From: Bryobacteraceae bacterium
GTDB lineage: Bacteria > Acidobacteriota > Terriglobia > Bryobacterales > Bryobacteraceae
Direction: 5' to 3'
DNA length: 6,565 nt
Assembly: GCA_025350445.1 (NCBI GenBank)
Contig: JANXXV010000063.1
Coordinates: forward strand, 1-6,565
The translations under genes were made by a program, and so were the position numbers. The notes beneath the pieces are model-generated. The model was not told the DNA's origin. It was given only the letters and a program-made list of their open reading frames with translations, and ran no database searches. Of this stretch, positions 381-6,565 are shown one piece after another (position 1 is the first letter of the stretch; each line of letters begins with the position of its first letter).

Positions 381-998
381 TCACCTCCGTTTTTGCTTCG
401 CAACAAACGCCGCAACTGCCTTAAGCAGTTCTATGTCCGTCTTGGAATGCGGTTGCAGTTTCTCGGCGAATGTCCGGCCAGGATGGAGTACGTCCCACGG
501 CGATCGCTGTTGCCGATAGCTGCCTGACCCTGGATCATGATTGCCGAATTCATCAATGAGCCGGTTCCATATCGGCGAAAACATCTCGATCAGCAATGAT
601 TCGCCCAGCGGAATCCAAATCTCATCGACAACCAGATAGCGGCAAGCGAAATCCTTGACCGATAGGTTCTTGGTCTGCTGGATCGACTCGGCATGATCGC
701 AGAGCCGGTTGAAAAGAACCACTCCAGCGGGGGCGTCTAATCCGAAACCGCCCTTATGCGCACCTTCTGGAACGGCCTTGCCGACGTAGATCAGCGGTAT
801 CTCTTTGCCCTCCGCATCAGCTTTGGCAATAGTGCGGTAGACTGCGTGATCGCCCGAATAATAAATGGCATAGATTCCGGCCCCGATAAACTTCTCGCAG
901 GGTGGAAGGGGACCAACTGGCTGTGCCAGCAGTGCATTCACAATGCTGGTTCCGAGACTTTTCTTATCCAGCGGGTTAAAGAGCTGTTCTGTCCGCAC
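381..998 (-). CDS. Eco29kI-family GIY-YIG type II restriction endonuclease
   Basis: This 205-residue enzyme of the Eco29kI family is a GIY-YIG nuclease type that cuts double-stranded DNA; Eco29kI itself recognises CCGCGG. Landmarks are FNPLDKKSLG (7-16), GAGIYAIYYSG (39-49, Tyr43), PLIYVGKAVP (68-77, Tyr71), LFNRLCDHAESI (Arg98, His102), WIPLGESLLIEMFSPIWN (Glu133, Asn145), then FGNHDPGSG and RSPWDVLHPGR, which are typical of the family. All residues I would expect in the active site are present and length is close to the family's. The start is GTG at 998, because GGAG (1009-1006) lies seven bases upstream and the protein then begins as relatives do. An ATG at 1067 would add 23 residues read from the methyltransferase piece. 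It overlaps that piece by 23 bases. Recognition of CCGCGG is inferred from family membership only. The gene looks intact although no complete cognate methyltransferase is in the window. Confidence 0.88.
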   Translation of the reverse strand: MRTEQLFNPLDKKSLGTSIVNALLAQPVGPLPPCEKFIGAGIYAIYYSGDHAVYRTIAKADAEGKEIPLIYVGKAVPEGAHKGGFGLDAPAGVVLFNRLCDHAESIQQTKNLSVKDFACRYLVVDEIWIPLGESLLIEMFSPIWNRLIDEFGNHDPGSGSYRQQRSPWDVLHPGRTFAEKLQPHSKTDIELLKAVAAFVAKQKRR

Positions 999-1224
999 GC
1001 TTTTTCTCCACGAGATGCCTGCCGATGTCGGCGGCCATAATCCGTCCCAGATCAACCTGGACCGCATTGCCTAGCTGCCGCATATTTTCACTCCACGATC
1101 CGCGGAAAAGAAATTGATCGGGGAACATCTGGATTCTGGCCGATTCGCGTACGATCAGATACCGAAAGTTTCCCGGCTTAATAGGATTCTGTTGAGTATT
1201 GGTGCTGACATATTTGATAGGCAT
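976..1224 (-). CDS. C5-cytosine DNA methyltransferase, C-terminal fragment
   Basis: This 82-residue piece carries the closing part of a C5 methyltransferase. Motif IX is FRYLIVRESARIQMFPD (20-36) and motif X is MRQLGNAV (48-55), followed by the terminal helix DLGRIMAADIGRHL. The Pro that normally follows GNAV is Gln56. No catalytic Cys, cofactor motif or recognition domain is present. The best start is the ATG at 1224, one base after the reader-nuclease stop (TGA-C-ATG); a TTG at 1254 is also in frame. No ribosome site is visible, so translation would depend on re-initiation. Two counted lines give 43% and 47% GC against 58-63% for the N-terminal piece, so the two pieces may come from different methyltransferases. 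It overlaps the restriction gene by 23 bases, as expected for the original end of a methyltransferase-restriction operon. It is probably a non-functional remnant, though split complementation is conceivable. Confidence 0.8.
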   Translation of the reverse strand: MPIKYVSTNTQQNPIKPGNFRYLIVRESARIQMFPDQFLFRGSWSENMRQLGNAVQVDLGRIMAADIGRHLVEKKRADRTAL

Positions 1225-1225
1225 G

Positions 1226-2227
1226 TCAAAGCGGTAAATGAAATTGTTCGTCAATCACGACCTTTGACAGCCTGAACCCGTCAACGAGGGCAATTGGATT
1301 CTTGCCATCCTCGTTCGCCTCATTGATAGCTGCCTTTGAGAAGTGACTCGTCGTGACAACAGCGCCCCTGGCAAATGGCTTCAAGCTTCCACGTAGCTCA
1401 GCGACTTCCTTGCGTCCCACGGAGTGCAGCCAACGCTTGGCCTGCACTTGGACCAATGCGTTTTCAAAGAGCCAAAGCCGACTCCCAACTATGGCGTTCA
1501 CATCGACTCCACCATCGGAACTGAACTTTGTAACGCAGACGTCCGAAAAACCGCAATGTTCAAGTAGATCCTTAACAAAAAACTCGAAGTTCTTGGGCTC
1601 CATCGCTAACAACTTGCTACGAACCCGCTCGATCCGCTCGATGTTCTCAGTTTGTTGGTAATCGCCCGCGTGGATGATCTCGTCGTCGTCGGAATTATTG
1701 ACAATTCGGAGTCTCGACGTAGTTAGCGTTTGGTTCGAAATTTCAGCTTCGATCGCAAGGGGCAAGATCTGACGTTCGCGATGAATCCTGAATTCAAAAA
1801 GCCAGACTCTGCGGACCTTGCCATCGGCGTCGAGTTGCGTGTCCGGATAGTGCCGAAGGTATTCAAGCAACCCCAGATACTTCCAGCGTTTCGGTCCGAC
1901 GGACCGGTCCCTTCTATTGGCGGCTAACACGAATCCGTGTATGGGAAAATTGAAGGTCTTTTGCTCGATCACCCGATTGTTTACACCGGCGAGCGTCTGT
2001 TGGCCGAGTTTTCCGGCCGCCGTATAGGTCAATATACCCTCCTCCAATCTGTCATGGTATGGATTCTCACCAGTGCCATGGAGGCCTTGTAAAGAGGTCA
2101 TGATAATCGCCCTCAGAACCGATTTGTTCTGAAGCGAAAGGCGGATACCCCCGGCGTTTGAAACCTTGAGGGATCTAAAGATCTCATCATTTGAATAAAG
2201 CTGTCCTACCACTAATGCTTCGATCAT
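1226..2227 (-). CDS. SRA-like modified-base reader fused to Mrr-type restriction nuclease
   Basis: The product has 333 residues and two domains. Residues about 5-150 (VGQLYSNDEIF, AGGIRLS, GENPYHDRLEEGILTYTAAG, WKYLGLLEYL, RRVWLFEFR) resemble the SRA-like reader of ScoMcrA-type modification-dependent endonucleases, which flips or senses modified cytosine. Residues about 205-330 form an Mrr catalytic domain of the PD-(D/E)xK fold: FEFFVKDLLEHCGF, then SSDGGVDV with Asp242, then VQVQAKRW with Gln262-Ala263-Lys264, then a closing ALVDGFRL. The catalytic set looks complete, so a type IV-like restriction role on modified DNA is the best inference. The ATG at 2227 overlaps the preceding TGA (ATGA) and has no ribosome site of its own, suggesting coupling. 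An in-frame extension to 2419 was rejected. Counted lines give 37-53% GC, clearly lower than upstream. It lies between the two methyltransferase pieces. The nuclease call is firm, the reader call moderate. Confidence 0.75.
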   Translation of the reverse strand: MIEALVVGQLYSNDEIFRSLKVSNAGGIRLSLQNKSVLRAIIMTSLQGLHGTGENPYHDRLEEGILTYTAAGKLGQQTLAGVNNRVIEQKTFNFPIHGFVLAANRRDRSVGPKRWKYLGLLEYLRHYPDTQLDADGKVRRVWLFEFRIHRERQILPLAIEAEISNQTLTTSRLRIVNNSDDDEIIHAGDYQQTENIERIERVRSKLLAMEPKNFEFFVKDLLEHCGFSDVCVTKFSSDGGVDVNAIVGSRLWLFENALVQVQAKRWLHSVGRKEVAELRGSLKPFARGAVVTTSHFSKAAINEANEDGKNPIALVDGFRLSKVVIDEQFHLPL

Positions 2228-2277
2228 CGGACACGGCTCACGCGTTCGCAGCGTTCGGATGGGTTGAGAGTGTACAT
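2224..2277 (-). pseudogene. Truncated second vsr start (17 codons), overlapping the next gene
   Basis: The frame reads MYTLNPSERCERVSRVR and then TGA. The intact Vsr at 3229 begins MDTLTAVERSERMSRVR and continues SADTTPE. The two peptides share TL, ER, ER and SRVR at equivalent places, but the codons differ widely, so this is a divergent vsr rather than a recent duplicate. It has a plausible ribosome site (AGGAG, 2291-2287), and its stop overlaps the ATG of the reader-nuclease gene as ATGA. The GC drop begins at this junction. It may now serve as a translated leader delivering ribosomes to the downstream gene. The match is short, so chance similarity cannot be excluded. Confidence 0.5.
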
Positions 2278-2375
2278 CCCCTGGTTCTCCTGGCCAATCA
2301 TAACGCCCGATCCCCGCGATTGCCCATAGGAGACAGTCCTTTGTCGAGAACTCACTATACCCCGGCTGTTCCGGT
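2278..2375 (-). promoter_or_regulatory. Non-coding gap with possible promoter and ribosome site
   Basis: About 100 bases separate the truncated methyltransferase from the Vsr-like leader. I see no methyltransferase remnant in any frame. TGGGCA (2326-2321) and TATGAT (2302-2297), 18 bases apart, resemble a sigma70 promoter (4/6 and 5/6 matches to consensus). AGGAG (2291-2287) then lies nine bases before the ATG at 2277. The predicted transcript start would fall almost on the ribosome site, which weakens the promoter call. The ribosome site is more convincing than the promoter. Confidence 0.3.
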
Positions 2376-2819
2376 TCAGCGTGAAATGGCCGGGATCGGG
2401 CGCATCTCGATCCCAACACGAAGGACGCGCGACCGGGGGAAGCACTGTCGCGTCAGGCCTTTTACGTTCTCGATCAGGATGGCCTTCGGCCGCAACGCCA
2501 GTACCGCCCTGACGGTTTCAGGGAACATGTTCCGTTCGTCGTCGTAGCCGCCATGCTTCCCGCCCATCGACCAAGGCTGGCAAGGCACACCCGCGGCGAG
2601 CAGGTCAATGTCCGTACCGCATTCGTCGAAAGCAAACTGCGTGACGTCGGCCTCAAAGAGAGGCCAATCCTTCACCGGCTGAAGGCCGCGCTTTTGATTT
2701 GCACGGATCGTGTCGCAGGCGTCCTTATCGATCTCGACAACCGCCTTATGCGAAAATCCGGCATTCGATATGCCGAGCGCAAGGCCACCGGCCCCGGCGA
2801 ATAGCTCCACTGACGTCAA
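2376..2819 (-). CDS. C5-cytosine DNA methyltransferase, N-terminal fragment
   Basis: This 147-residue piece belongs to a C5 methyltransferase of normally about 320-420 residues, which transfers a methyl group from S-adenosylmethionine to cytosine C5. Motif I is VELFAGAGGLALG (4-16), motif II VEIDKDA (28-34), motif IV AAGVPCQPWS with nucleophile Cys80, and motif VI ILIENVKGL (114-122). Similarity to the family stops around residue 125 (LTRQ). A tail of about 22 unrelated residues follows before a stop at 2376. Motifs VII-VIII, the target recognition domain and motifs IX-X are absent. The start is TTG at 2819: GGAGG lies four bases upstream, TTG shares two bases with the vsr TGA, and the protein then begins right at motif I. 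Local GC is about 58-67%, unlike the C-terminal piece at 976-1224. On its own it should not be a sequence-specific methylase. Confidence 0.85.
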   Translation of the reverse strand: MTSVELFAGAGGLALGISNAGFSHKAVVEIDKDACDTIRANQKRGLQPVKDWPLFEADVTQFAFDECGTDIDLLAAGVPCQPWSMGGKHGGYDDERNMFPETVRAVLALRPKAILIENVKGLTRQCFPRSRVLRVGIEMRPIPAISR

Positions 2820-2828
2820 TCTGCCTCC
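2816..2828 (-). promoter_or_regulatory. Ribosome site and TTGA stop-start overlap coupling vsr to the methyltransferase
   Basis: GGAGG (2828-2824) precedes the TTG start (2819-2817) by four bases. The TTG overlaps the vsr stop TGA (2818-2816). This decides the methyltransferase start and indicates translational coupling. Confidence 0.65.
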
Positions 2829-3229
2829 AAGAACTCCCTTATTGTATCGGCAAGTTTGGGCGATTTGATAGCGCACTCCCAGATCACCAGAACTTTCCAA
2901 CCCTCACGCCGCAAGTCACGCTGCGATTTGAGATCGCGCTCGCGGTTTTTTTCGAGCTTCGGTTTCCAGAACTCTAAACGGGACTTCGGCATCCGCGCCA
3001 ACTTGCAAGTCGCGCCGGGGTGCCGATGCCAAAAACATCCATGTATGAAAATGATTTTACCGCGGCTTGGGAAGACGAGGTCGGGCTTGCCCGGAAGGCC
3101 GGAAACGTGCAACCGGTAGCGGAACCCCATCCTATGGATGAGACGCCGAACGAACAACTCCGGCGTAGTGTCCGCGCTGCGGACTCTACTCATGCGCTCG
3201 CTACGTTCGACCGCCGTCAACGTATCCAT
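2816..3229 (-). CDS. vsr: Vsr very-short-patch-repair endonuclease
   Basis: This is a 137-residue mismatch endonuclease of the Vsr family. Vsr nicks DNA 5' of the T in T:G mismatches left by deamination of 5-methylcytosine and is typically encoded beside a C5 methyltransferase. The sequence shows the usual N-terminus (ERSERMSRVRSADTTPE), the GLPGKPDLVF segment carrying catalytic Asp50, HGCFWHRHPG (63-72) with the active-site histidines, EFWKPKLEKNRERD (86-99) and the C-terminal VLVIWEC (113-119). Length and motifs are complete. I chose the ATG at 3229 because it gives a typical Vsr N-terminus. An in-frame TTG at 3262 would add 11 residues. No strong ribosome site is visible. The gene starts 41 bases after the NRPS stop, and its TGA overlaps the TTG start of the next gene. 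GC in the one line I counted is 68%, in line with the NRPS side. Confidence 0.9.
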   Translation of the reverse strand: MDTLTAVERSERMSRVRSADTTPELFVRRLIHRMGFRYRLHVSGLPGKPDLVFPSRGKIIFIHGCFWHRHPGATCKLARMPKSRLEFWKPKLEKNRERDLKSQRDLRREGWKVLVIWECAIKSPKLADTIREFLEAD

Positions 3230-3243
3230 GGACGTGGCTGTCC

Positions 3244-3270
3244 AATTTAGACTGTTTGCCAACCAGTCAA
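3244..3270 (-). promoter_or_regulatory. Possible promoter/operator ahead of vsr
   Basis: Directly after the NRPS stop codon lies TTGACT (3270-3265), then 15 bases, then TAAATT (3249-3244). This is a loose sigma70-like pair with short spacing. An imperfect inverted repeat, GACTGGTT-ggc-AAACAGTC (3268-3250, one mismatch), fills the spacer and could be an operator. There is no T-run, so it is unlikely to be an intrinsic terminator for the NRPS gene. The gap to the vsr ATG is only 41 bases, and read-through from the NRPS is equally possible. Confidence 0.25.
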
Positions 3271-6200
3271 CTACGACGCCTTGCCCATCACCCGGAATCG
3301 CGGAGCCTCCTCCTGATTCTCACCGCCGATCAGCAGGACCCCCGCAATGGTTCGCTGTGCCAGCAGTTGCTTCGGAGTGATAGCGATGCCCGCGGCCTTG
3401 GCGCGGGTGCTGATTTGCAGGACGTGATGCGAATCGGCGCCAAGCTCGAAGATGTCATCCTCCACTCCGACCTGATCCAGCCACAGCGCTTCAGCCCAGA
3501 TCCGCGCCAGGGTCTTCTCAGCCGCTGTCCGCGGCGCGACGTATTCGCGCCCAATTCGATGTCCGTAATCCGGGGCAGGGAGCGCGCTTCGATCCACTTG
3601 CCCGTCCTGTGCCGCAGGCAGATGCTGCATCATTACAAACGCGGTGGGAATCAAATGCGCCGGCAAAGAGTCCGCCAGGCACGCCCGAAGATCCTGCGCC
3701 GCAATCGATGACTCCGCCGGAACCACGTAAGCGGTCAGGCGCTTGTCGCCGGGCGTGTCCTCGCGAACGACTACTGTGGCTTCCAATACGGCGTCGTGTT
3801 GCAAGAGGGCCTGCTCGATTTCTCCCGGTTCCACTCGAACGCCACGAAGCTTCACTTGTCTATCGAGTCGTCCCAGGTATTCGATCTCCCCGCCGGGCAG
3901 TATTCTTGCCAGATCCCCCGACCGGAAGAAACGGCTGTCCGGCTTATTTGAATACGGGTCCTGGACAAAGCGCCCGCTGGTAAGATCCTCGCGATTCCAA
4001 TAGCCGCGCGCAACACCTGCGCCGCCGATGCACAACTCACCCTCGACACCGCTGGGAACCGGGTTCAAGTTCCGGTCGAGAATATACATCTCCACGTCTG
4101 GAAGGGGCTGGCCAATCAGGCTGCCCCGCCGGTTGCCCGGTTCGCTTACGGCGTCCGCCGTCCGCACGCCGCGGCAGGAAGCGAAGACCGTCGCCTCGGT
4201 AGTGCCGTACATGTTGAACACTTCCACACGATCGTCTCCGTTGCGATCAAACCAAGGCTTGAGGCCGGCGAACGGAAGAGCTTCCCCGCTCAGTATGAGC
4301 AGGCGCAGCGGCAGACGATTGCCCGCCAGGTTCTGCTGGTCGGCTTCGATCAAATGATGGAACGCGGATGGTGTTTGATTCAGTACCGTGACGCATTCCG
4401 CTTCGAGCAAGCGGCGAAAATCCTGCGCGGAAGCGGCAACGGCGGAAGGAACAATTACCAGCCGGCCGCCGTAGAGAAGGCAGCCCCAAAGCTCCCAGAC
4501 GGTGAACGCCGATGCCCAGGGGTGAGCCAGTGCCCAGACGTCGGATGGTTCAAAGTGGAATCTCTCATCGGTGGCGGCGAAAAGGCGAGCCACATTGCGA
4601 TGGGTAAGGACGACGCCTTTCGGTTTACCGCCGGAATCCGGTGTATAAATCGTGCAGCACAAATTGTCCGGCGAGCCCGCCGGAGCAGGGTTCTGTTCGC
4701 TCTCCCGGGCGATAAGCGGCCAATCCGTGTCAATGCAGATACTTCTGATTCCGGCGCTGGGAAAGTAGTTCAATAACGCCAGTTCGGTAACAATGAAACT
4801 GCTCCGCGCGTCTTCCAGCAGGAACCGCAGGCGCTCGGGTGGTCCGCCCGCGTCGAGCGGAACATATCCGCCTCCAGCCTTAAGAATGCCAAGTACACCA
4901 ACTAACATAGCCAGCGAATGTTCGACGCAGAGGCAGACCGCTGTTTCCGGCCCAACGCCGTGCTTCCGTAAATAGCGCGCCAACTGATTGGCCCTGGTGT
5001 TCAACTCGCCATACGTTAGCCGCCGGTCTTCCAGCATGACGGCGACGGCGCTCGGGTTGACCGCTGCTTGCTCCTCAAAGATTTCGTGAATGCAGCGAAC
5101 CGCCGGATATTCACGGGGGGCCCTGCTCCAACCTGAAAGTACCGCCGCCGTCTCCGCGGGCGTCATTAGAGCGACGCGCTGAACAGACTGTGTGGGGTCG
5201 GCCGCCGCATGCAGCAGAAACGATTCGAAGTGGCCCAGCCACCGGCGAATGGTGGATTCGTCGAATAGGTCCGTGCTGTAATCGCAATCGAGAATGAGTC
5301 CGTCGCTTAATGCGGTCACTCTCAGGAACAGGTCGAAATGGACGGCGCTCTTCGGGTTGGCGGTGACGGCCGCCGCGAGTCCGTCGAAAGCCAATCCCGC
5401 GCCCGCGTGCTCCAGATTGAATTGAACTTCCATCAACGGCTGGCGGCCCTTGTCCCGCGGTAGATCGAGTTTGCGGACAAGAGTTCCGTACGTATATTCC
5501 TGGTGGTCGCAGGCGTCCACCAGCGTCCGCTTTGTCTGATTGAGGAACTGCTCTACCGTTGTTTCGTCTTCGGTTCGCGCCAACAGCGGGAGAAAGCCGA
5601 TGGAGCGGCCAACCACAGTGGCGGCTTCGATCGCCGATTGGGCCGCCGCCGGAATTCCTACTACGGAAATCGCGCGGCCGGCCAAACGCTGCAGCAACGC
5701 GTGCAGGCCGCTCAGCAGGGTTACGAAAAGGGTGCATCCTTGGGTCAGTCCCAGACATTCGATCTGGTGTGCATTTTCGGCGGAGATGGTTGCGCGGCAG
5801 GTGGCAACCCGAAACGACGGCACCGCAGGCCGCGGACGATCCGATGGCAAGTCTAAAGGCGGCGGGATTTCCTTGAATTGTTCCAGCCAATAGGCCTCAG
5901 TCCTCCGGCCGTCCGCGGTTGCCGGACGCCGTTGCCCGGCGATGGCATATTCACGGAACGAGCTTACCTCCGGCAACCGGCAGACCGACTCTTGGCGTTT
6001 TGCGGAATAGAGCTTCGAGATTTCGTCCAGGACTACGTTTGCCGACCACCTGTCACAAATAATCCGATGGCTGGAGAAAACTAAAATGTGGTCGTCAGGT
6101 TGAAGGCGTACCAGCATCGTCCTGACAAGCGGACCGGCCGCCAGATCGAACGGCGTTCCGGAATCTTCCATGACCAACTGTTGGTAGGCGCTGGCGCGCT

Positions 6201-6565
6201 CGTCCGGTTCCAGGCCTGAGAGGTCGACGATGGTGAAGGGAAGATCGAGCGCCGGGGCAATGCGCAGCGATTCGCCTTGCGCCTCCACGGCGGCTCGCAG
6301 CGCTTCATGGCGCGCAATGATTTCGGCAATGGAATCCTGCAGTGCGGGGATGTCCAGATCGCCCAGCAGATGGACGCTGCATGAATCGTTAAAGACGATG
6401 TTCGCGATGCCACCACCGTGCGCAGCCCGCGAGATCTCAATTTGGGCTTCGGTCATCGGTACGGTCGACACCGGGGAAGGGATAACGGGTTCCGGAACGG
6501 ACGCTTTTTCCGGAGGGGACGGGAACAAGCCGCCTTCCTGCATTTCCCGTACGCTGCGGCGGAAA
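3271..6565 (-). CDS. Non-ribosomal peptide synthetase, C-A-T module with degenerate catalytic motifs (5' partial)
   Basis: This is one NRPS extension module. Numbering from the ATG at 6543, a Pro-rich linker (about 5-28) leads into a condensation domain (about 29-460), an adenylation domain (about 484-985) and a thiolation domain (about 1003-1072). The frame stays open upstream of the ATG to the window edge and no good ribosome site precedes it, so the protein probably continues to the right. C-domain landmarks are PMTEAQ, RHEALR and VQFNLE. The normal HHxxxDG is HRIICDR (159-165). A-domain landmarks are LTYGELN, LKAGGGYVPLD, NMYGTTE and GELCIGG. The P-loop reads YTPDSGGKPKG (633-643). The specificity positions read A-F-W-N-I-S-M-V-F-Q, close to the threonine code DFWNIGMVHK but with the anchoring Asp (A679) and the catalytic Lys (Q982) lost. 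The carrier motif LGADS keeps Ser1038. There is no thioesterase and the protein ends 18 residues after the carrier. Family assignment is certain. Loss of activity is inferred. Confidence 0.95.
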   Translation of the reverse strand, partial: FRRSVREMQEGGLFPSPPEKASVPEPVIPSPVSTVPMTEAQIEISRAAHGGGIANIVFNDSCSVHLLGDLDIPALQDSIAEIIARHEALRAAVEAQGESLRIAPALDLPFTIVDLSGLEPDERASAYQQLVMEDSGTPFDLAAGPLVRTMLVRLQPDDHILVFSSHRIICDRWSANVVLDEISKLYSAKRQESVCRLPEVSSFREYAIAGQRRPATADGRRTEAYWLEQFKEIPPPLDLPSDRPRPAVPSFRVATCRATISAENAHQIECLGLTQGCTLFVTLLSGLHALLQRLAGRAISVVGIPAAAQSAIEAATVVGRSIGFLPLLARTEDETTVEQFLNQTKRTLVDACDHQEYTYGTLVRKLDLPRDKGRQPLMEVQFNLEHAGAGLAFDGLAAAVTANPKSAVHFDLFLRVTALSDGLILDCDYSTDLFDESTIRRWLGHFESFLLHAAADPTQSVQRVALMTPAETAAVLSGWSRAPREYPAVRCIHEIFEEQAAVNPSAVAVMLEDRRLTYGELNTRANQLARYLRKHGVGPETAVCLCVEHSLAMLVGVLGILKAGGGYVPLDAGGPPERLRFLLEDARSSFIVTELALLNYFPSAGIRSICIDTDWPLIARESEQNPAPAGSPDNLCCTIYTPDSGGKPKGVVLTHRNVARLFAATDERFHFEPSDVWALAHPWASAFTVWELWGCLLYGGRLVIVPSAVAASAQDFRRLLEAECVTVLNQTPSAFHHLIEADQQNLAGNRLPLRLLILSGEALPFAGLKPWFDRNGDDRVEVFNMYGTTEATVFASCRGVRTADAVSEPGNRRGSLIGQPLPDVEMYILDRNLNPVPSGVEGELCIGGAGVARGYWNREDLTSGRFVQDPYSNKPDSRFFRSGDLARILPGGEIEYLGRLDRQVKLRGVRVEPGEIEQALLQHDAVLEATVVVREDTPGDKRLTAYVVPAESSIAAQDLRACLADSLPAHLIPTAFVMMQHLPAAQDGQVDRSALPAPDYGHRIGREYVAPRTAAEKTLARIWAEALWLDQVGVEDDIFELGADSHHVLQISTRAKAAGIAITPKQLLAQRTIAGVLLIGGENQEEAPRFRVMGKAS
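4615..4647 (-). other. NRPS A-domain P-loop (A3 motif), altered
   Basis: Codons 633-643 read YTPDSGGKPKG where adenylation domains have YTSGSTGKPKG. Ser, Gly and Thr of the nucleotide-binding loop are replaced by Pro, Asp and Gly, while the following KPKGVVLTHRN is normal. This loop contacts the ATP phosphates in the superfamily. Confidence 0.9.
6046..6069 (-). other. NRPS C-domain active-site motif, altered to HRxxxDR
   Basis: Codons 159-166 of the NRPS read H-R-I-I-C-D-R-W. The family motif is HHxxxDGW. The second His, which is needed for peptide-bond formation in most studied condensation domains, is Arg (CGG, 6066-6064). The Gly is also Arg (AGG, 6051-6049). The surrounding residues (ILVFSS before, WSANVVLDE after) keep the family pattern, so the alignment is unambiguous. 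Confidence 0.9.

Follow-up and report, generated by a model that had tools for sequence, protein, structure and literature searches.

A bacterial PKS-NRPS line apparently disabled in its KS, AT, ACP, C and A domains: a candidate pseudo-megasynthase

Assembly lines that tolerate inactive domains have been described in several systems. According to section 4.1 of PMC8949500 and to passages of PMC3777966, the inactive adenylation (A) domains of the albicidin, ramoplanin and enduracidin lines are complemented in trans and stay in the protein despite having lost core motifs, and bleomycin-type lines are described in passages of the latter as carrying a non-functional A domain. The X domains of glycopeptide NRPSs, as treated in PMC8949500, are C-type domains with a mutated HHxxxDG motif and a function other than condensation, and the prozymes of trypanosomes (AdoMetDC and DHS) are presented in PMC5201418 and PMC3663545 as paralogues without activity of their own that switch an enzyme on. 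Working lines with a single dead domain, and dead paralogues with a regulatory role, are, in short, already known. A literature search restricted to best matches, with few subscription journals covered, returned no account of an entire assembly-line protein disabled in the manner reported here, and the main text of PMC9723581 contains no occurrence of either "inactive" or "pseudogene".

The stretch of DNA analyzed here (6,565 nucleotides, hereafter the window) carries on its minus strand a frame (3271-6564) that runs open to the window edge and encodes, in 1,097 codons, the C-terminal part of a PKS-NRPS, with an aminotransferase (AMT) tail followed by a condensation (C), A and PCP module. Pfam matches in this frame comprise PF00668 (Condensation), PF00501 (AMP-binding), PF13193 (AMP-binding_C) and PF00550 (PP-binding). 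With the frame open to the edge and its first residues (FRRSVREMQEGG) matching the aminotransferase end of two related proteins, P0020 and P0185, the ATG at 6543 is probably an internal codon; the true start probably lies outside the window. Hence, the 1090-codon frame of the original prediction was open as claimed, but its start was probably misplaced on an internal methionine. From the layout of its relatives, the module of the window would itself be preceded by KS, AT, ACP and AMT domains. At the other end of the frame, the C-terminal tail RFRVMGKAS (3271-3300, minus strand) resembles those of P0004 (RFRVAGKLS), P0239 (RFRVMDMAS), P0020 (RFRLMDKAS), P0240 (RIRIMEKAS) and P0008 (GFRLMEKAS), and is a possible candidate for a docking tail.

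Directly downstream of the PKS-NRPS frame lies a restriction-modification island (381-3262), also on the minus strand, in which profile matches identify Vsr (2816-3262), the N-terminal part of a C5-cytosine methyltransferase (2376-2900; profile positions 2-116), an Mrr-type nuclease (1226-2419) and an Eco29kI-type endonuclease (381-1067). A C5-methyltransferase end piece (986-1224; profile positions 263-323 of 324) follows the Mrr gene, and the middle part of the enzyme was not found between the two profile-matching ends. The methyltransferase thus appears to be split, with the Mrr gene placed between its ends.

The A domain of the window (3565-5112, minus strand; Pfam) scores 278.8 bits against PF00501 and 397.3 bits against TIGR01733, which places it among the NRPS adenylation domains at the curated cut-off, and its code reads AFWNISMVFQ. 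The original prediction had described this domain as the descendant of a threonine activator, deprived of its phosphate loop, its substrate aspartate and its catalytic lysine, and alignment, including a HMMER alignment to LgrA, bears out the three substitutions. An alanine (GCG, 4509-4507) stands opposite Asp235 of GrsA and a glutamine (CAA, 3600-3598) opposite the A10 lysine, Lys517, both at the positions claimed, and the remainder of the pocket is indeed F-W-N-I-S-M-V-F. The A3 loop reads TPDSGG opposite TSGSTG, although its codons lie at 4644-4627, one base away from the 4645-4628 initially given. The A7 aspartate and the A8 arginine are still present. Asp235, Lys517 and the first serine and the glycine of the loop are found in 108 of 108 full-length homologues (protein-search matches above 2,500 aa) outside the clade defined below, and the loop threonine in 107; eight shorter homologues (P0244, P0248, P0256, P0258, P0265, P0276, P0305 and P0307) were excluded from this set. 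The claim that the changes fall on catalytic sites also stands: nine of the 63 near-invariant A-domain columns are lost in the window, and six of these nine belong to the A3, A4 and A10 motifs, which hold only 12 of the 63 (hypergeometric P = 8.6e-4, for a set of motifs picked after the losses had been seen).

Judging from these residues, the A domain would no longer make an acyl-adenylate. Loss of Asp235 alone occurs in A domains for substrates that lack an alpha-amino group, and this background, together with the retained A7 aspartate and A8 arginine, could be taken to mean that the domain still activates a substrate by some unusual mechanism, for instance an acid that has no alpha-amino group. 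We regard such activity as highly improbable, given that the P-loop and the A10 lysine are lost together and that in the related protein P0020 much of the P-loop is missing altogether.

The lesions are not restricted to adenylation. The C domain (5140-6462, minus strand; PF00668) is degenerate, with 19 of 76 near-invariant columns lost, and in place of the HHxxxDG motif of functional condensation domains it carries HRIICDR (6069-6049, minus strand), in which the second histidine and the glycine are both replaced by arginine. This broken motif had been overlooked in the original prediction, which was accurate for the lesions of the A domain. Both histidines, the aspartate and the glycine are present in all 108 homologues outside the clade. 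The PCP domain (3334-3516, minus strand; Pfam), on the other hand, still has the phosphopantetheine serine expected of a carrier protein (LGADSHH; Ser codon 3432-3430).

Protein searches identified six relatives with catalytic losses in the domains that they cover (P0239, P0240, P0020, P0008, P0178 and P0185), which form, together with the window, what we term the dead line. Identity to the window amounts to 80% (79.7%) over 1,093 residues for P0240, 75% over 1,093 for P0239, 66% over 820 for P0020 and 59% over 1,017 for P0008, which is labelled Bryobacteraceae; the sequences of P0178 and P0185 are confined to KS-AT-ACP-AMT. Full-length open frames are found in P0239 (2,668 aa) and P0240 (2,653 aa), which align with eight short gaps. 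In all five A domains of the dead line, the window included, Asp235 is replaced by Ala or Ser and Lys517 by Gln or Gly. The KS cysteine is replaced by His or Tyr and the AT serine by Gly in 4/4 proteins with these domains (P0239, P0240, P0178 and P0185), and the ACP serine by Val, Ile or Ala in 6/6. An Arg replaces the second histidine of the C motif in the window and in P0239 and P0240; in P0020 and P0008, where alignment of the C3 region is unreliable, this motif has been deleted or can no longer be recognized. P0240 additionally lacks one KS histidine, and P0020 and P0008 carry in-frame deletions in both C and A. Conversely, the PLP lysine and the aspartate of the AMT are kept in all six relatives, as expected of a PKS-linked class III aminotransferase of the mycosubtilin/microcystin type; the window contains only the AMT tail. 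The PCP serine is kept in four of the five dead-line proteins with a PCP (window, P0239, P0020 and P0008), P0240 having a proline. The residues tested in KS, AT, ACP, AMT, C, A and PCP are kept in 108 of 108 homologues outside the clade, with the A3 loop threonine as the one position conserved in 107.

From these residues, we would say that the KS, AT, ACP, C and A domains of the dead line are incapable of their usual chemistry. The dead A domain initially proposed is hence supported, but that reading was too narrow, since the damage in the full-length relatives extends to KS, AT, ACP and C. A strain-specific lesion, an outcome on which the original prediction was to be given up, is ruled out, as all four clade relatives with an A domain (P0239, P0240, P0020 and P0008) are without Asp235 and Lys517 and have an abnormal loop. 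An assembly artefact is ruled out by the origin of the sequences, which lie on distinct contigs of four sources (ncbi, ena, jgi and lgn), and a recent mutation of a single gene by the long stem common to the dead clade. Outside the 108-homologue set, P0176 (2338 aa, AMT-C-A-PCP) presents altered A3 (IYTSGADGQPHA) and A10 (DGRVDR) motifs and is possibly an independent case of an altered A domain.

The retained PCP serine in four of five proteins raises the alternative of a working module in which a separate A domain loads the PCP in trans, as has been proposed for albicidin and ramoplanin in section 4.1 of PMC8949500. A residue loaded in this way would, however, have no evident user, with the C domain broken and, in the full-length relatives, KS, AT and ACP broken too, and the serine itself is gone in P0240; we therefore hold this alternative to be improbable.

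Trees computed with FastTree for the A, C, KS-AT and AMT domains, from selected subsets of 31, 27, 18 and 20 sequences, respectively, all recover the dead line as one clade with support 1.0. Among the sequences chosen, the A and the C tree both place P0004 as its sister. P0004 (857 aa) has intact A and PCP motifs and is 65% identical to the window over 846 residues. Its code, DFWNIGMVHK, which we take to be the threonine code, is shared by five of the six intact relatives read (P0004, P0033, P0147, P0126 and P0122), the sixth, P0124, having an A domain of another type (DILQLGMIWK). The descent from a threonine activator put forward earlier is supported by both the shared code and the position of P0004, and we infer that the ancestor of the dead line activated threonine. 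The catalytic losses would be older than the spread of the dead line.

The constraint acting on the dead protein was gauged by protein-level tests, against neutral simulations started from the window DNA and run to the identity observed between the window and P0240. No stop codon separates these two proteins, against a neutral mean of about 7-11, depending on the setting, and a minimum of 1 in 1,600 runs, and a single gap of 4 aa is found between them; copies with a broken frame may go unseen, given the bias of protein databases towards open ones. Conservative replacements make up 0.401 of the differences (neutral about 0.26, maximum 0.348), and replacements needing at least two base changes 0.153 (neutral about 0.06, maximum 0.129). 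For C and A taken separately, the conservative share is 0.45 and 0.42, respectively, compared to 0.42 and 0.38 in intact pairs. Near-invariant columns of the A domain are spared between the window and P0240 (3/63 changed versus 92/424 other sites, P = 4e-4), and between P0239 and P0240 the corresponding values are 10/114 versus 72/313 for KS, 3/55 versus 41/216 for AT and 6/147 versus 55/288 for AMT. The identities of P0239 and P0240 in KS, AT and ACP (0.81, 0.84 and 0.83; intact means 0.83, 0.78 and 0.72) lie within the intact range relative to AMT divergence. No uniform-omega simulation, at settings from 1.0 to 0.1, attains the observed multi-base share, and we therefore claim no omega value.

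These results bear directly on the main rival explanation, a slow decay in which the cluster lost its use, the catalytic residues went and the copies now seen are those whose frames are by chance still open. Several observations favour it. The C domain has a flat substitution profile, its near-invariant columns being unspared both between the window and P0240 (13/76 versus 60/348) and between P0239 and P0240 (17/76 versus 92/348), and the conservative share in the C domains of P0020 and P0008 (0.27) equals the neutral level. Damage also mounts in P0020 and P0008, with 46 of 76 near-invariant C columns lost in P0020 and 36 of 76 in P0008; P0185 (1614 aa, KS-AT-ACP-AMT) stops a few residues inside the C domain, and P0240 has lost its PCP serine. 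Slow decay does not easily account, however, for two open frames of about 2,650 codons, for window/P0240 replacements more conservative than in all 1,600 neutral runs, for the sparing of near-invariant columns in KS, AT, A and AMT, or for the clustering of A-domain losses in catalytic motifs. We consider it a serious alternative, albeit one that we doubt.

The losses accumulated across the dead line differ among domains, near-invariant columns being lost at 4-8% in KS, 4-9% in AT, 17-33% in ACP, 7-9% in AMT, 25-61% in C, 13-35% in A and 12-38% in PCP. Change at near-invariant columns exceeds that of intact pairs in all six domains compared, AMT included, an excess that arises partly by construction because it was the intact set that served to define the columns. 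Between P0178 and P0185, the conservative share is low (0.42 in KS, 0.30 in AT, 0.17 in ACP and 0.36 in AMT), for small numbers of differences (12-26 each). At equal identity to the window, multi-base replacements are fewer in the dead P0020 (0.199) than in the intact P0004 (0.313), a sign that constraint on P0020 may be the weaker. Taken as a whole, we read these mixed patterns as suggesting that KS, AT, A and AMT are under a constraint that is genuine although relaxed, and that C is the most eroded domain. The retention of the fold, which had been suggested from the open frame, is supported by the differences between the window and P0240 and, weakly, by a low-confidence structure model (mean pLDDT 66.4, pTM 0.53, built on 10 sequences) that matches C-A structures and whose low-confidence stretches include residues 642-647, 681-686 and 985-988, at or beside the altered motifs.

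DNA of orthologues was sought in several collections. Two viral-contig scans returned no relative, and a genome-contig scan returned 17 loci with best segments only 26-42% identical. The best identity was 52% among 192 relatives of a Calditrichota genome and 51% in another set of 40 such relatives, and four genomes from a phylum selected with the ADOP marker held no match at the limit set. Matches at the limit were found in 16 of 60 relatives of another genome (best 52%) and in 12 of 249 genomes of a further phylum (best 53%), the latter including no dead-line member. With the aminotransferase as query, 15 of 394 genomes of one class of that phylum had a match (best 60%), again with no dead-line member; aminotransferase identity inside the dead line is 80-94%. 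These genome sets overlap in part, and only 2-8 candidates were scored per genome in those of 192, 60, 249 and 394; we infer that the last two cover the Acidobacteriota. All plasmid matches fell below 60% identity and a 16S pattern search gave 0/80. Within the genomes searched, the dead line looks narrow.

The reading that we prefer, with slightly better than even confidence, is that the window codes for the C-terminal part of a pseudo-megasynthase that is retained for some use other than synthesis. By sequence, the dead line is a side line of an AMT-linked PKS-NRPS family in which the catalytic residues of KS, AT, ACP, C and A were lost wherever these domains are covered while the frame stayed open; its protein would no longer extend a chain. 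The folded body might then carry an aminotransferase acting in trans, a use that we deem possible but unlikely. The AMT of the dead line may still be capable of its chemistry, because P0239 retains the PLP lysine in an AMT that can be aligned over its whole length with its mycosubtilin synthase counterpart. Less likely still, the protein could serve as an inactive, prozyme-like partner of an active homologous synthase. In its most general form, our proposal is that a PKS-NRPS of about 2,650 residues, disabled at catalytic residues of KS, AT, ACP, C and A, is maintained in a bacterial lineage with at least one member labelled Bryobacteraceae, where it would be a folded pseudo-megasynthase working for the aminotransferase embedded in it or regulating a homologue that is active; we put this forward tentatively, at somewhat less than even confidence. 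If true, it would constitute a pseudoenzyme at the scale of an entire assembly-line protein. Genome-mining pipelines would probably call a threonine-activating module in it, predicting a product that could not be made in this way. Moreover, should selection keep the dead body, the line would provide a natural test of what the fold of a megasynthase is worth without catalysis, and of the repurposing of assembly lines.

Compared to known systems, the dead line has the same domain order as the intact KS-AT-ACP-AMT-C-A-PCP synthases P0241-P0243, P0245-P0247, P0121 and P0124, whose named members are labelled Terriglobia or Bryobacteraceae and which are 53-57% identical to P0185 over KS-AT-ACP-AMT, but which differ in having another type of A domain (A4 TTLSFD). 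In contrast to intact homologues, it retains only the AMT residues and, mostly, the PCP serine. Its likeness to subunit A of mycosubtilin synthase lies in the AMT, for which 6kfm is the best solved match to P0239, aligned end to end and with the lysine aligned. The albicidin, ramoplanin, enduracidin and bleomycin systems, the non-functional A domain of the last being that of NRPS-0, each have one dead domain in a working line, whereas here KS, AT, ACP, C and A are all apparently dead; in a similar vein, the X domain is a single domain, and here most of a protein is concerned. Finally, the likeness to prozymes resides in a dead paralogue with a putative function, and is a comparison of how the two would work only, in which the active partner of the dead line is hypothetical.
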